Below, in pieces: positions 17,973 to 23,627 of a DNA stretch of 64,000 bases (the stretch's first letter is position 1; every line of letters begins with the position of its first letter). The notes under the pieces were generated by a model. The model did no database searches, was not told where the DNA came from, and saw only the letters and a list, made by a program, of their open reading frames with translations. The stretch is taken from the NCBI RefSeq assembly GCF_003143775.1, contig NZ_QFRJ01000005.1:1-64000 (forward strand), in the 5' to 3' direction. Source of the DNA: Brumimicrobium oceani (GTDB lineage: Bacteria > Bacteroidota > Bacteroidia > Flavobacteriales_D > Crocinitomicaceae). The position numbers were made by a program, and so were the translations under genes.

Positions 17973-18767
17973 ATGAGCAAAAACATATACGGTGTAGTAG
18001 GATGCGGATGGCTTGGACTTCCAACAGCGAAAAAATGGATTCAAGAAGAAAAAACGGTTCATGGAACTACAACTTCTAAAGACAAAATTGAAAGCTTAGA
18101 AAAAGTTGGAATTAATGCTCACATTTTAGACAGTGAAAAGAGCAATGAAGAAACAAAGTGGCTTTCTGAGTTGGATTATATTTTACTCAATATTCCACCA
18201 TCAAGTTTGAAGGAAGAATATGGCAACTTCATGCTGAAAATTGTAAAACAATTAAAACCACCGGCTAAAATAATCTTCATCAGTTCTACTTCTGTTTATG
18301 CGAATAATAATCAAGAGGTAACAGAAGCATCAGAATTAGAAGGAACACGAAGAAACTCTGCCTATTTGATTGATGCCGAAAAAATGCTAGAAGAATTTGC
18401 TAAAGAAAGACTCACAATTATTCGCTTTGCAGGACTGGTTGGTGGAGATCGAAACCCTGCTAAATACATGACAGGAAGAACTATTAGTGGAGGCAATGAT
18501 CCAGTTAATTTAATTTACCAAGATGATTGCATAGGAATAATCGACCACATCATTAATAATTCAATTTGGGGAGAGGTTTTTAATGGTTCAGCAACGGTTC
18601 ATCCCACAAAAAAGGAATACTACACTTTCGCAGCGAAGCAATTGAATATTGAACCACCAACTTTTGATGGCGAAAATAAAGATTATAAAATCATTGATGG
18701 GAATAAAATAGCTGAGAAGTTTGGGTATGAATATAAGTACGCCAATCCTTTTGATTTTCCTGATTAA
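17973..18767 (+). CDS. SDR-type NAD(P)-dependent epimerase/dehydratase-like protein
   Basis: A 264-aa Rossmann-fold protein of the extended short-chain dehydrogenase family, close in pattern to E. coli YeeZ. The nucleotide-binding loop is GCGWLGLP near residue 10. The substrate region shows SSTSVYANNNQEVTE, a serine and tyrosine arrangement that differs from the classical YxxxK. Shorter than GalE-type epimerases. Substrate unknown. Single gene between the recA terminator and a cluster of large hairpins. Confidence 0.75.
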   Translation: MSKNIYGVVGCGWLGLPTAKKWIQEEKTVHGTTTSKDKIESLEKVGINAHILDSEKSNEETKWLSELDYILLNIPPSSLKEEYGNFMLKIVKQLKPPAKIIFISSTSVYANNNQEVTEASELEGTRRNSAYLIDAEKMLEEFAKERLTIIRFAGLVGGDRNPAKYMTGRTISGGNDPVNLIYQDDCIGIIDHIINNSIWGEVFNGSATVHPTKKEYYTFAAKQLNIEPPTFDGENKDYKIIDGNKIAEKFGYEYKYANPFDFPD

Positions 18768-18899: not shown

Positions 18900-18960
18900 T
18901 GAAAAAAGGGGAATAAAAAAGATGATGCGCAGCATCATCTTTTTTATTCCCCTTTTTTCA
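18900..18960. repeat. Hairpin 2: perfect 29-bp arms
   Basis: The arm at 18900-18928 (TGAAAAAAGGGGAATAAAAA then GATGATGC) is matched perfectly by 18932-18960 around a 3-base loop. The stem is as long and as perfect as that at 5591-5653, and the two look related in layout. It could terminate both convergent genes, since one side ends in T-rich sequence, but the length far exceeds a normal terminator. Confidence 0.8.
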
Positions 18961-19117: not shown

Positions 19118-20782
19118 CTAAAAATAGAAATACACAAAATGCTTCGACGTATCGGCCACCAGCTGATAAATTCCAATCACAAAAACACAACTCGTTACGA
19201 TTTGCATTGCGAAAGAAGATTTTGAGAATCGATTTTCTAACCACGTTTCATTTCTTTCTGGAAGCCAATGAAGAATCATTCCTAAAACTAAAATGATTAA
19301 AGGAATTGAAAAAGTGCTGCACATTAAAAGAAAAGCATCGATGTTAAAATGGAATTTTGAGACCATGTGGTTGAAATAATCAAAAGGTTCGGATTTCCCT
19401 TCTACCCTAAACCAAATTCTGGCGATGGTCATGAAGGTAAAGGTTGAAAAAATCTTCCAAGCCCTCACCAACCAATGATTCAATTGTTCATAAGGTGAGA
19501 TTTTCTTCCAATGGTTGTAAAAGACCAGTCCTAAACCATTCAGCGCTCCCCAAACCAAATAATTCTGATTGGGATTGTGCCACAAACCTCCAACCACCAT
19601 GGTAATCATGAGGTTCATATCTCGATAAATGATCTTTTTTGCATGCGGAAATAACCATAGAACAGTGAAATATATAGCGATAAATGCCACTAGCGCATAT
19701 AAAAGCCAGAACCATTTCGTAAAGAAAAACAAGAATAAAAAAATGATGGATATTGTGGTAATTGACGCTAAACCTCCAGTTCTATTCCCACCTAAAGGAA
19801 TATATAAATAACTTTTCCACCATTTACCGAGTGAAATATGCCACCTTCTCCAAAATTCAGCGGTGTTTAATGATTTGTAAGGCGAATTGAAGTTCTTCAT
19901 TAATTTGAATCCCATTAATCGCGCTACACCTGTGGCCATATCGGTATATCCTGAGAAATCTCCGTAAATTTGAAGTGAATAAGCGAAAATAGCTACCAAA
20001 CTCACAAATCCTGGATAAGATTCAGGGGAGTCTACAATTTTATCAATGAAATGAACGGCGATATAATCTGCTAAAACTAGCTTCTTGAAAATTCCTTTTA
20101 AAATTTGAAAAATTGCCCATCCAAATTCGTCTTTATTTAAAGAATATGGTTTAGAAATTTGAGGAACAAACTCTTTTGCACGAACAATTGGACCTAAAAT
20201 TAAATGAGGGAAAAAGGAAATAAAGAAGGAGTAATGAAATACATTTTTGATTGGTGGAACTTCTTTTCTATAAACATCTACGATATATCCAATAGAACTA
20301 AAAGTGAAAAACGAAACTCCAGCAGGCAAAAGTAATCGACCAAAAATATCATTTGCTCCATAAGCACTAAATCCATTTTTGAAATAGGAAATCATGTTAA
20401 AGACTTCGTAATCGGTATGAAAAAAATCGTTGAAGGAGCTCGTAAAGAAATAGGCATATTTGAAATAAGCCAAAACAAAAATATTCAGAATAACAGCAAT
20501 CGCCAAAACTACTTTTCGAGATGTTTCCTTGGTTTGGGCCGCGATTAAATGTCCAAAACTATAGTTGGAAGCCAAAGCAAAAACAAGAATAAAAACAGAA
20601 AGTCCGGATGTTTTATAGTAGAAGAATAAACTAACTGCCGTAAGGTAAATACTTCGAACCAACTTGTTTTTGTGCAGGAATGAAAAGAAAATCATTACTA
20701 CTAAAAAGAACAACCAGAAATCTAACCTCGAAAAGGTCAAATCAACAGAAGCCAAAGAAAAAACATCGAGCAATCGTTGCAT
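19118..20782 (-). CDS. MBOAT-family O-acyltransferase
   Basis: Polytopic membrane protein, 554 aa, of the AlgI/DltB/PatA type that moves acyl groups (usually acetyl) across the membrane onto glycans or peptidoglycan. The family core WRRWHISLGKWWKSYLYIPLGG is present, and the conserved His is in GGLWHN (about residue 402). Many relatives have a second His in GALHG; here that place reads GALNG. It is the last gene of an operon with two SGNH proteins: its ATG abuts the stop of the preceding gene. This is the expected layout of an extracytoplasmic O-acetylation unit. Acceptor unknown. Confidence 0.88.
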   Translation of the reverse strand: MQRLLDVFSLASVDLTFSRLDFWLFFLVVMIFFSFLHKNKLVRSIYLTAVSLFFYYKTSGLSVFILVFALASNYSFGHLIAAQTKETSRKVVLAIAVILNIFVLAYFKYAYFFTSSFNDFFHTDYEVFNMISYFKNGFSAYGANDIFGRLLLPAGVSFFTFSSIGYIVDVYRKEVPPIKNVFHYSFFISFFPHLILGPIVRAKEFVPQISKPYSLNKDEFGWAIFQILKGIFKKLVLADYIAVHFIDKIVDSPESYPGFVSLVAIFAYSLQIYGDFSGYTDMATGVARLMGFKLMKNFNSPYKSLNTAEFWRRWHISLGKWWKSYLYIPLGGNRTGGLASITTISIIFLFLFFFTKWFWLLYALVAFIAIYFTVLWLFPHAKKIIYRDMNLMITMVVGGLWHNPNQNYLVWGALNGLGLVFYNHWKKISPYEQLNHWLVRAWKIFSTFTFMTIARIWFRVEGKSEPFDYFNHMVSKFHFNIDAFLLMCSTFSIPLIILVLGMILHWLPERNETWLENRFSKSSFAMQIVTSCVFVIGIYQLVADTSKHFVYFYF

Positions 20783-22201
20783 TTATTCCTTTTTTAATAT
20801 TGTTACAGGAGGTTTATTCTCCATTTGTTCTATCCATTTTAAGAAAGCTTCAAAAAATAAATCGCCTTTTAAATGATAGCCATCGATTGAAAAATGGACC
20901 AAATCACCTTTCATTAATTTGTTGGTCGCCCAAGTTTTTGAAGAACCCAACTCTCCCATAATTCCATATAAATCCCAAACGGGAACTTGATATTTCTTCG
21001 CCAATTCAATAATTACTGTTCTTTCTCTATCCACATTTCTGTTGAGATATCTTCTTTTATAATAAGAATCGTTAGGAACAGTTAATAAAATTGCGCAATC
21101 AGGATTGGCCAAGAGTACTTTTTTCATCATTTTTTCTAAGTTCTCTTTATAAACCTGTGGGTCAAAGTCAGCATACGGAACGTTCGCATCATTTGTTCCC
21201 ACAGAAAAAGCGAAAAAATCGGGTGGAGATTGTGACAATTGTTCAGTGAAGTTTTCATTGTCCAAATAAGTATACAATCCTGCTCCATTGATTCCTATCG
21301 CTGTGTAAGATATTCCAGGGTGTTTATTCATCAGTTGAAATCCATAGATAAATAGCGTCTTACTTTGAATGGAATCCGAAATTAAACTGTCGTTTTTCTT
21401 AATGAAATCGACTTCAAAAGAAACTAGCTCTTTCTTGAAATAAGTATCCGTGAATCCTAGTTCCTCGTTTGTAAATTGATGAAGAACAGGGTTGTTTACC
21501 GGATCATAGTTGATTTCATAAGGCATTTCTCCCTTGTTATGATAAACTCTTATGTGATCAATTGGCGGATTTTCATTGTTGCCCTTGTATCTAAATGCAA
21601 GGTTGATTTTCTTATCCGCACAGGCAATTGCCGCCCCTATTAAGCCATAATGGACAGAATCGTTTCGATGAATTACAGAGCGATAGCCTTTCCAGTCATT
21701 GTGAGAAGTAAACCCATAATTCCATGGATTGTTTGTACCCGCCATTTTAAAAGGAAAAACCCAAGCCCTCTCCCCTGGTAAATCATCCCAATAATTGAAC
21801 AGATATTCTCTCATGTCATTGGTGTAAATATCTGCCTGAATGTGAGATCCGCCAATGTGATAAAAGTTCAATTTCCCAGATTTATTTTTCACCATTTGCT
21901 GAACATCAAAAAATAACTTTTCAAATGTTGGACTCTCTTTCGTATAAAACTGATAATGATTTTGATCGAAATTGATAAAAGGATATTGATTTTGAATAGA
22001 AGTATCAATTATTCCAAATAAATCATCGTTAAGGTATCCATTTAGAGAGTCGCTGTGTTTACTCAATTTTGACTTTGCTATTGAATCTAGTTTTTCTTCC
22101 GTCAAAAGCGAATCTTCTTCAACCACAGGAAGCTCCTGTCCGAAAAAATTGAACGTGAATAGTAAAAAAACAATGGCTATTTTAATTTTTTGTTGAATCA
22201 T
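20783..22201 (-). CDS. Exported SGNH-hydrolase-like protein (second of pair)
   Basis: A 472-aa protein with signal peptide (to about residue 21). SGNH-type blocks can be traced: Ser119 in HIGGSHIQAD (Gly replaces the usual Asp before Ser), Asn337 in VGTNDA, and Asp433/His436 in GDLVHFSIDGYH. All catalytic positions are present. Partners of MBOAT proteins with this fold (AlgX/AlgJ, PatB-like) complete acetyl transfer to the glycan outside the membrane. The start overlaps the previous SGNH gene by 20 bases and the stop abuts the MBOAT gene. Confidence 0.78.
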   Translation of the reverse strand: MIQQKIKIAIVFLLFTFNFFGQELPVVEEDSLLTEEKLDSIAKSKLSKHSDSLNGYLNDDLFGIIDTSIQNQYPFINFDQNHYQFYTKESPTFEKLFFDVQQMVKNKSGKLNFYHIGGSHIQADIYTNDMREYLFNYWDDLPGERAWVFPFKMAGTNNPWNYGFTSHNDWKGYRSVIHRNDSVHYGLIGAAIACADKKINLAFRYKGNNENPPIDHIRVYHNKGEMPYEINYDPVNNPVLHQFTNEELGFTDTYFKKELVSFEVDFIKKNDSLISDSIQSKTLFIYGFQLMNKHPGISYTAIGINGAGLYTYLDNENFTEQLSQSPPDFFAFSVGTNDANVPYADFDPQVYKENLEKMMKKVLLANPDCAILLTVPNDSYYKRRYLNRNVDRERTVIIELAKKYQVPVWDLYGIMGELGSSKTWATNKLMKGDLVHFSIDGYHLKGDLFFEAFLKWIEQMENKPPVTILKKE

Positions 22202-23627
22202 CTACTTTGGTTAATTTATTATACGATGTCATAAAAGCATCATAGAATTTTTGTGTTGCAATACTGGCTCCTTTTAAGGTAAAATGGACATGATCTTGGC
22301 TGGCTAAACCTTTTTCAACCCAAGCGGCCATTGCGTCTTCTCCTCCCATTGCGGCGTACATATCAAAATATGCTCCACCAATTTCCTTTGTCATTTTTCG
22401 CAATTCGTCCACATAAAAAGGCAGTAAAGGATAGGTTCTAAATTCTTCTTCGATAAGGGTTGACATATCACTTGGTCCAATAACAATAATCATCGCATTT
22501 GGTCTTAGGCGTTGAATGACATTTAATTGCCCTTTAAAATAACGAACAGTTTGAGCAACATCCGCAGAATCTTTGATATAAGGAACAGCATTTCCTCCAA
22601 ATTGCATGATGAACAATTCTACATTTTGCTCATCATAAATTTGTTTTGCCAAAGTTTGGTCAATTTTCCCAAAAAAAGTTCCGCTAGAGCCTCTCATCGC
22701 AATATTGTCTACTTGCAATCCACCGTCTCCCTCCAAAGAATACCCCAAAATATGAGGACTAATTTTAGCTGTATATTCAAACTTCACCTTTCCTACTTCT
22801 CCTGGAAATGTATATTTAAATTTATGATATTTTCCATCTGGAATTAAAGAGTCTGATTTAACCAACTCTCCATTATTCCAAATTTTTAGTTCACAAGGCG
22901 AAAAGGCATCTGCATAATGCAAGGTGATACTTTTGTATCTTTTGGCTGTTCCATAAGCAAGTCTTCCTGGTTCAATTTCCATCCATGCAGTGGCTAATTT
23001 CAAACTGTCTAAACTTATAGAATCAGGATATTCTGGAGTAAATCTCCCCACAGAATTCATTATTCCATACCTTTTATTCGATAATTTTTGTCCTCCAAAA
23101 TTGGTGTATCGCTGAAAGTTTTCTGAAACCGTTTGCGTATAAGAAATTGTTTCATACACGTTTACTGCAGGAATAAATCCAGGACCAGAACCACCAAATT
23201 GAGTTTGTAGCCTTTGTCTCAAAAATGCCGTTACTCGATCTCCTTCAATTTGTGAATCTCCATAGTGCAGAATCCTTGTTTTCTGGGAAATCCCCCCTTT
23301 GAGTTGATTTAAAAAAGCTGTAAACTTCTTTTTTCCCGATTCAGAATAAGACAGTAAATCTTCCTTGGTAAGCTTATAATTTTTTACTTTTCCTTCGGGC
23401 TCTTCAACTTCATCCACTATTGTTGTATCGATATCTATAAAAAGAGAGTCTAAGTTGACTTCCTTTCGTTTTTCGTTTTTTAGAAGTTTGGCTTCCGATA
23501 AAAACCGGAATTCATATCCAAAAATTTCTTTTCTTCCTTCGGGAACAGCATAGGTGATTGCACCCAATAAGATTAGGCAAAGCACTATAAACAAGACAAT
23601 ATGAAAAGGTTTATACGTTTTTTGCAT
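22182..23627 (-). CDS. Membrane-anchored SGNH-hydrolase-like protein (first of pair)
   Basis: 481 aa from the ATG at 23627. The longer reading to 23684 runs through a strong promoter, so I reject it. One N-terminal membrane span (about residues 8-28) anchors an extracytoplasmic domain. SGNH residues: Ser125 in YGDSQIEGD, Asn346 in FGGNAVPY (GGNA where GxND is usual), Asp445/His448 in QDHVHFTLKG. First gene of the SGNH-SGNH-MBOAT operon. It probably works with the second SGNH protein and the MBOAT channel to acylate a surface or periplasmic glycan; that role is inferred from the arrangement. Confidence 0.75.
   Translation of the reverse strand: MQKTYKPFHIVLFIVLCLILLGAITYAVPEGRKEIFGYEFRFLSEAKLLKNEKRKEVNLDSLFIDIDTTIVDEVEEPEGKVKNYKLTKEDLLSYSESGKKKFTAFLNQLKGGISQKTRILHYGDSQIEGDRVTAFLRQRLQTQFGGSGPGFIPAVNVYETISYTQTVSENFQRYTNFGGQKLSNKRYGIMNSVGRFTPEYPDSISLDSLKLATAWMEIEPGRLAYGTAKRYKSITLHYADAFSPCELKIWNNGELVKSDSLIPDGKYHKFKYTFPGEVGKVKFEYTAKISPHILGYSLEGDGGLQVDNIAMRGSSGTFFGKIDQTLAKQIYDEQNVELFIMQFGGNAVPYIKDSADVAQTVRYFKGQLNVIQRLRPNAMIIVIGPSDMSTLIEEEFRTYPLLPFYVDELRKMTKEIGGAYFDMYAAMGGEDAMAAWVEKGLASQDHVHFTLKGASIATQKFYDAFMTSYNKLTKVDDSTKN

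Follow-up and report, generated by a model that had tools for sequence, protein, structure and literature searches.

A candidate OAP-type operon for peptidoglycan O-acetylation in Brumimicrobium oceani

The window analysed here, a stretch of 64,000 nucleotides of Brumimicrobium oceani (contig NZ_QFRJ01000005.1 of RefSeq assembly GCF_003143775.1, positions 1 to 64,000), carries an operon in which two genes for SGNH-type proteins, S1 and S2, precede a gene for an MBOAT acyltransferase. Judging from sequence and predicted structure, we lean towards the view that this operon is a cluster of the OAP type that would O-acylate, most likely O-acetylate, the peptidoglycan and edit the result. The gene order, the catalytic residues, the shuttle motif of the MBOAT and the Ape1 fold predicted for S1 and S2 are the direct findings on which this proposal builds. 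The donor, the glycan and the role of each SGNH protein are deduced, and in the route that we propose acetyl-CoA of the cytoplasm would donate an acetyl group that the MBOAT, by means of His402 (with His315), loads onto its own Tyr551 in the motif FVYFYF. The membrane-anchored S1 would accept the acetyl group on its serine and pass it to the peptidoglycan glycan, the role known from PatB, and S2, a free Ape1-like protein, would remove or trim acetyl groups.

A sequence-only reading of the window had described the trio as an extracytoplasmic acylation unit, and the Ape1 fold of the SGNH proteins, the shuttle motif and the existence of LysM-bearing relatives all support that description. The arrangement that it gave is borne out by the open reading frames (ORFs) of the minus strand, with two SGNH genes ahead of the MBOAT gene, an overlap of 20 nucleotides between S1 and S2 and an S2 stop codon that directly abuts the MBOAT ATG. 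The three motifs that it singled out, GGNA, GGSH and GALNG, are likewise all present (Table 1).

The predicted Ape1 fold, the catalytic residues and the MBOAT shuttle motif

In a profile search of the PDB, Ape1 was matched by S1 at E 4.1e-31 and by S2 at E 1.4e-30. The AlphaFold models of both proteins (mean predicted local distance difference test score 86.8 for S1 and 85.8 for S2) lead to the same relative: Foldseek ranked Ape1 first (4.6e-22 for S1, 1.3e-22 for S2), with the next protein at 8.0e-08 and 3.2e-09, respectively. VIA-align superposed S1 on Ape1 with a Z score of 36.1 over 339 residues (rmsd 2.8; next entry Z 15.7) and S2 with a Z score of 36.7 over 343 residues (rmsd 2.5; next entry Z 17.9). 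Both models cover nearly the whole chain of Ape1 (PDB 4k3u, 8gkd, 8gld), inserted domain included, and are predicted to form an SGNH core with an inserted carbohydrate-binding domain, a Ser-Asp-His triad and the additional asparagine. The operon differs from Ape1 in holding two paralogues, at an identity of 16-20%. S2 retains blocks II and III of Ape1, which read NGA in 122 of 131 S2 sequences and N[DE] in all 131, whereas S1, membrane-anchored, has other blocks, mostly RGxxG and a GxN without acid. A Pfam scan found the GDSL lipase family in S2 (E 1.5e-13) and weakly, under the cut-off, in S1 (E 3.5e-05).

The N terminus of S1 is a strongly hydrophobic helix, both in the sequence and in the AlphaFold model, and it looks like a retained membrane anchor. 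Export of both SGNH proteins, as the sequence-only reading had it, therefore fits S2, whose N terminus resembles a signal peptide by hydrophobicity and model only, and probably does not hold for S1.

The catalytic sets are present in both proteins: in S1 the Ser of GDSQ, the block II Gly, the Asn of GGNA and the Asp and His of DHVH; in S2 the Ser of GGSH, the Gly of NGA, the Asn of GTND and the Asp and His of DLVH. All 162 S1-labelled and all 131 S2 sequences retain the Ser, Asn, Asp and His, and the block II Gly is present in 159 and 131 of them. The window is part of these sets, as are a few duplicates, which leaves 158 and 127 distinct sequences; two of the S1-labelled sequences are a third type of SGNH protein, and the labels come from profiles that we built out of part of the same sequences. 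The residue and motif counts for S1 and S2, the motif combinations per operon, the trees and the distance comparisons cover MBOAT, S1 and S2 ORFs of at least 300 amino acids (aa) that lie fully within their locus.

The MBOAT retains FWRRWH and GLWH, whose histidines align with His289 and His336 of DltB; of these, His336 is the active residue and His289 is conserved (PMC11035591; this and the other papers are cited from excerpts of their text). As GLWH falls on the GFWH of DltB, the invariant catalytic His is present. By a manual count on the DltB alignment, the Asn of GALNG corresponds to His349, and a catalytic role for the His at this third position was accordingly rejected. Of 143 MBOATs, 87 have Asn at this position, 49 His, four Phe, two Gln and one Trp, and since Phe, Gln and Trp also occur there the His is replaceable. 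The idea that the unusual residues inactivate the enzymes was discarded as well, because the catalytic residues are all in place. An acid after the block III Asn is missing in 160 of the 162 S1-labelled sequences, the other two being the third SGNH type, which groups with S2 in the tree, so its absence is ordinary for S1. GGSH and GALNG alter positions without a known catalytic role. To speak of altered motifs was therefore an overstatement.

The MBOAT ends in FVYFYF, an instance of the acyl-shuttle motif FXYXXF. This motif ends 129 of the 143 MBOATs compared, its Tyr being present in 142. In PatA of Campylobacter jejuni the Tyr of this motif is auto-acetylated, the invariant His is needed, and the motif has been argued to hand the group to PatB (PMC12148441). 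The window MBOAT shares the catalytic His and the FXYXXF motif with the PatA/PatB systems of Neisseria and Campylobacter, and S1 and PatB alike are presumably anchored by a single N-terminal helix. PatB itself has no carbohydrate-binding domain and carries Ser or Asn in place of the block II Gly, a replacement linked to transferase activity (PMC12148441). No PatB entry appeared among the PDB profile matches of S1 and S2. Structurally, S1 aligns with PatB (8tlb) at a VIA-align Z score of 14.0, tied with several esterases, as against 36.1 for Ape1; S2 matches PatB (7tjb) in Foldseek at 1.1e-04, rank 50, and PatB is not among its best 50 VIA-align matches. The AlgI/AlgJ/AlgX system resembles the trio in combining one MBOAT with two SGNH-type proteins, but S1 and S2 are of the Ape1 type, and AlgJ and AlgX were absent from their PDB profile matches at E up to 1. 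With the Dlt system (DltA, DltC, DltB, DltD, DltX) the operon has the MBOAT chemistry and a shuttle motif in common, but it lacks a DltA ligase and a DltC carrier, and its own MBOAT carries the shuttle motif. Assignment of the MBOAT to DltB itself was rejected, with a score of 126.7 bits against a cut-off of 375.

That peptidoglycan may be the target is suggested by LysM, a glycan-binding domain that is common in peptidoglycan enzymes, on SGNH relatives. Five relatives exceed 560 aa, and LysM was found in all four that were scanned (Table 1); one of them, the S2 of locus L076, belongs to the clade with Asn in the third MBOAT position and stands in the same gene order as in the window. The Pfam scan of the trio proteins of the window gave no LysM match.

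Table 1. Features of the operon, its downstream flank and related loci
Feature	Position	Strand	Basis or remark
SGNH1 (S1)	23627-22182	minus	ATG start at 23627; mechanical ORF opens at TTG 23684
S1 GDSQ	23250-23261	minus	motif reading
S1 RGSSG	22680-22694	minus	motif reading
S1 GGNA	22587-22598	minus	motif reading
S1 DHVH	22284-22295	minus	motif reading
SGNH2 (S2)	22201-20783	minus	ORF
S2 GGSH	21842-21853	minus	motif reading
S2 NGAG	21278-21289	minus	motif reading
S2 GTND	21188-21199	minus	motif reading
S2 DLVH	20894-20905	minus	motif reading
MBOAT acyltransferase, 554 aa	20782-19118	minus	ORF and Pfam PF03062, E 3.7e-18
MBOAT FWRRWH	19838-19855	minus	
MBOAT GLWH	19577-19588	minus	
MBOAT GALNG	19535-19549	minus	
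MBOAT C-terminal FVYFYF (Tyr551)	19121-19138	minus	
Inverted repeat, 20 pairs, T runs flanking both sides	18907-18953	none	pattern scan only
LysM-bearing relative (S2)	L076:6658-8400		
LysM-bearing relative (S2)	L092:8742-10922		
LysM-bearing relative (S2)	L084:5517-7502		
LysM-bearing relative (S1)	L193:7637-9739		
Operons with ligase and carrier-like ORF	L090, L091, L093, L096, L196, L206, L209, L210, L212, L215, L218, L219, L240, L241, L243, L244		

The OAP cluster and the motif clade

The trio has a precedent. The OAP clusters described in 2005 begin with ape1b, followed by ape1c and pat, and include those of Bacteroides thetaiotaomicron, Bacteroides fragilis and Porphyromonas gingivalis (Weadge 2005, PMC1199599). 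The window operon shares with them the order SGNH-SGNH-MBOAT, contiguous on one strand and in the same phylum, the absence of an intervening ape2 gene, the catalytic Ser and motif VII, Dx(V/T)H, which reads DHVH in S1 and DLVH in S2. Two traits differ: motif I, GDS(H/F), is replaced by GDSQ in S1 and GGSH in S2 with the Ser kept, and S2 keeps a long insert of 187 residues between Ser119 and Gly306 (median of S2, 180), whereas Ape1c is set apart by some 100 missing residues after motif I (PMC1199599). The clade of the window has in addition its own motif states, GGSH, GGNx and WGxxNG. Three loci of family f21 (L099, L200, L225) combine the trio order with a short S2, with 31-54 aa between the Ser and the block II Gly. 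The likeness to the Bacteroides and Porphyromonas clusters is judged from what has been published about them and from these three loci, and we take the window operon, on sequence grounds, to be a member of the OAP kind with motif states of its own and a long S2, in which two Ape1b/Ape1c traits are not seen. The gene ape2 was later renamed patB. Peptidoglycan O-acetylation amounts to 69% in B. fragilis and 27% in B. thetaiotaomicron (PMC1199599), and MurNAc O-acetylation to 56-66% in three Bacteroides (PMC11382707). As the peptidoglycan of Bacteroides is heavily O-acetylated and its cluster holds no ape2/patB, one of the two esterase-like proteins may well act as the transferase.

The order S1-S2-MBOAT recurs throughout Bacteroidota, and a unit peculiar to the lineage of the window was therefore rejected. 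The nearest relative, locus L065, has 80% identity in S1, 83% in S2 and 94% in the MBOAT; S2 is 72% identical to that of Brumimicrobium sp. (L172) and up to 83% identical in a genome of the same genus. The recurrence of the order and the identity to L065 show that the arrangement is more than a chance one. Of 392 genomes of the phylum, own genome included, 38 gave a match to a broad S2 profile at an E value under 1e-80 (a manual count of the rows listed) and 147 at E up to 0.001, where many matches are weak or actually S1. With S2 as query, matches were obtained in 18 of the 40 nearest genomes searched. The distribution of the trio is patchy. The row counts given here are not prevalences, because the loci were chosen by their match to S1 or S2.

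Within this distribution the three motif states travel together. G(G/A)SH and GGN occur in all 78 rows in which the MBOAT is of the Asn type and the motifs of both SGNH proteins could be read, and all 24 corresponding His-type rows have GDSH and a different block III; in two of the 24 (L092, L189) the block III reading came from a third SGNH on the reverse strand (GTND), and the S1 of these loci reads GMNI. In the MBOAT tree, one branch (support 100, length 0.63) separates the 44 Asn-bearing sequences from the remainder of the 100 rows. This quick tree used 100 of 140 MBOATs, with L105-L176 thinned to one in four; the SGNH tree, equally quick, comprised 164 sequences, one in eight having been kept of L105-L184, and came with a warning of long-branch joining. 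The members of the Asn-type clade are Crocinitomicaceae, Cryomorphaceae, Flavobacteriaceae (Aquimarina, Formosa) and families f38 and f59, which lie outside the class of the window. Most simply, the combination of GGSH, GGN and Asn would have arisen once and would mark a subfamily, not a new chemistry; with a single origin, the tight motif association reflects one event and no repeated co-evolution. What had been called lineage-specific is thus a motif combination that marks one clade, yet this clade spans several families and the trio itself is phylum-wide and was described in 2005. The motif clade was not named in the titles and abstract openings of the open-licence literature searched. The third SGNH protein mentioned above, of 357-360 aa and with GTND, lies on the opposite strand beside the trio (L092:5949-7019, L189:9889-10968); in the SGNH tree it sits with S2, and its branch is long.

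Proposed division of labour between the two SGNH proteins

A division of labour between the two SGNH proteins, already suspected in the sequence-only reading, is the likelier arrangement judged by sequence, and among the possible assignments of roles we give S1 the part of the transferase with fair confidence. As the operon has no PatB, an Ape1-type protein may fill its role. Several findings favour S1. Its N terminus exceeds a transmembrane-like hydrophobicity threshold in 90 of 92 operons, that of S2 in 41 of 92. Among 139 distinct MBOAT rows (identical ones counted once, in addition to the window), 27, from 24 loci, have S1 and MBOAT without a full-length S2; all belong to families f26, f44 and f50 of other classes, and three of them hold an ORF of 221-246 aa with a weak S2 score that was not counted as S2. 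The retention of the Ape1 blocks II (NGA) and III (N[DE]) by S2 points in the same direction, as do lone S2 genes of the GGSH type at L073, L123-L125, L132, L133, L168 and L175. Seven of the eight genomes with a lone S2 give only distant matches to the window S1 (E 2e-36 or weaker), and the eighth, G439, also has the trio; these genomes are mostly drafts of uncertain completeness, some of the genes lie near contig ends, and the search for MBOATs covered G010 only. In the two lone S2 genes whose starts were read, L125 and L132, the hydrophobic N terminus is followed by a Cys, and their products may be lipoproteins.

The same data bear on the alternatives. If the roles were reversed, S2 would receive the acyl group of the MBOAT and act as the transferase, and the anchored S1 would be an esterase or targeting subunit. 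The position of S2 directly ahead of the MBOAT in every one of the 79 Asn-type rows with S1, S2 and MBOAT (one of them with an MBOAT ORF split in two) and the co-occurrence of GGSH in S2 with the Asn of the MBOAT are in line with such a reversal, which we nevertheless consider unlikely in view of the rows that have S1 and MBOAT without a full-length S2, the lone S2 genes and the Ape1 blocks II and III kept by S2. A relay, in which both SGNH proteins serve one acylation route and no dedicated esterase exists, would recall AlgJ and AlgX, which play separate roles in the acetylation of alginate (PMC4148444). Full catalytic sets in both proteins and strongly correlated S1 and S2 distances (r 0.935 in the clade) are consistent with it; the lone S2 genes, the S1-only operons and the Ape1 esterase fold of both proteins make it quite improbable.

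The same machinery could also serve another envelope glycan (lipopolysaccharide, capsule or exopolysaccharide) or transfer an acyl group longer than acetyl. The window operon itself has no wall gene among its ORFs, and the sister operons described below, with a fatty-acyl-AMP-ligase-like gene and an acyl-carrier-like ORF, suggest that the donor can differ. We regard this as improbable, given that both SGNH proteins match the Ape1 fold, that LysM occurs on relatives, once inside the motif clade, and that peptidoglycan O-acetylation has been measured in Bacteroides with this gene order (PMC1199599).

Several observations weigh against a peptidoglycan O-acetylation cluster with S1 as its transferase. 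Both S1 and S2 have the block II Gly, and as the Ser or Asn of PatB is absent there, the sequence of S1 is not that of a PatB. The string 'Bacteroid' is absent from the excerpts of a 2018 review (PMC6174289), and in those of a 2024 review Bacteroidota are listed with O-acetylation of the OatA type, not Pat (PMC11382707). Matches to the S2 query occur in just five of ten genomes of the genus, own genome included. Nor do the distances identify S1 as the partner of the MBOAT: the partial correlation with the MBOAT is 0.29 for S1 and 0.23 for S2 in the clade, as against 0.24 and 0.37 over all 92 operons. Finally, nine of the 139 MBOAT rows have no neighbouring S1. Four of these have S2 (two are cut by contig ends, one has an S1 elsewhere on the contig, and L237 has none nearby); the other five lack S2 as well, and three of these five are other MBOATs of the genome of the window. 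These three further MBOATs (G000 C12, C1 and C4; L185-L187) each end in FXYXXF, and no S1 or S2 was found in the 9-15 kb covered around each, one lying near a contig end.

Flanking repeat and sister operons of other classes

Downstream of the operon, an inverted repeat sits between the MBOAT gene and a convergent gene that ends at 18767 (Table 1). It is a possible bidirectional terminator shared by the convergent genes.

In 16 MBOAT rows from families f26 and f44 of other classes, the order is S1, an AMP-dependent ligase, a small ORF and the MBOAT. Three of the ligases were scanned, and the match to AMP-binding PF00501 has an E value of 3.5e-48 in L091; compared with NCBIfam, two ligases are closest to long-chain-fatty-acid and fatty-acyl-AMP ligases, under the cut-offs. 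The small ORF, present in all 16 rows, encodes 76-81 aa with a WDS(L/I) site. Two small ORFs that were scanned gave weak matches to acyl carrier models, under the cut-offs, and the one scanned with Pfam gave no match. The S1 of these operons groups with S1 in the SGNH tree. By sequence, the layout looks like that of Dlt (ligase, carrier, MBOAT, SGNH) within a Gram-negative phylum, and it bears on the window because S1 is the SGNH protein that stays with the MBOAT there. This combination was not found in the open-licence literature searched. Two operons have tandem MBOATs behind one S1 (L208:7252-10214, L217:7239-10201), one copy per pair having Gln at the third-His position. In the sister operons of L090 and L204, the gene immediately before S1, in the same orientation, encodes a small SGNH-type protein (L090:5849-6574, GDSL by Pfam; L204:8753-9460).

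As a tentative scenario, possible rather than probable, these operons and that of the window could belong to a PatB-free branch in which an Ape1-type S1 became an acyltransferase and S2 stayed an esterase, fed by acyl-CoA as in the window or by a ligase of the fatty-acyl-AMP type and a dedicated acyl carrier protein as in the sister classes. The operon of B. oceani, odd at first sight, now has a place in a known wall-modifying system. The operons with ligase and carrier would extend the range of groups that such systems attach and the ways in which they are supplied, and if the scenario is true, the S1-MBOAT machinery would be a Dlt-like acylation system of Gram-negative bacteria that can also attach groups other than acetyl.

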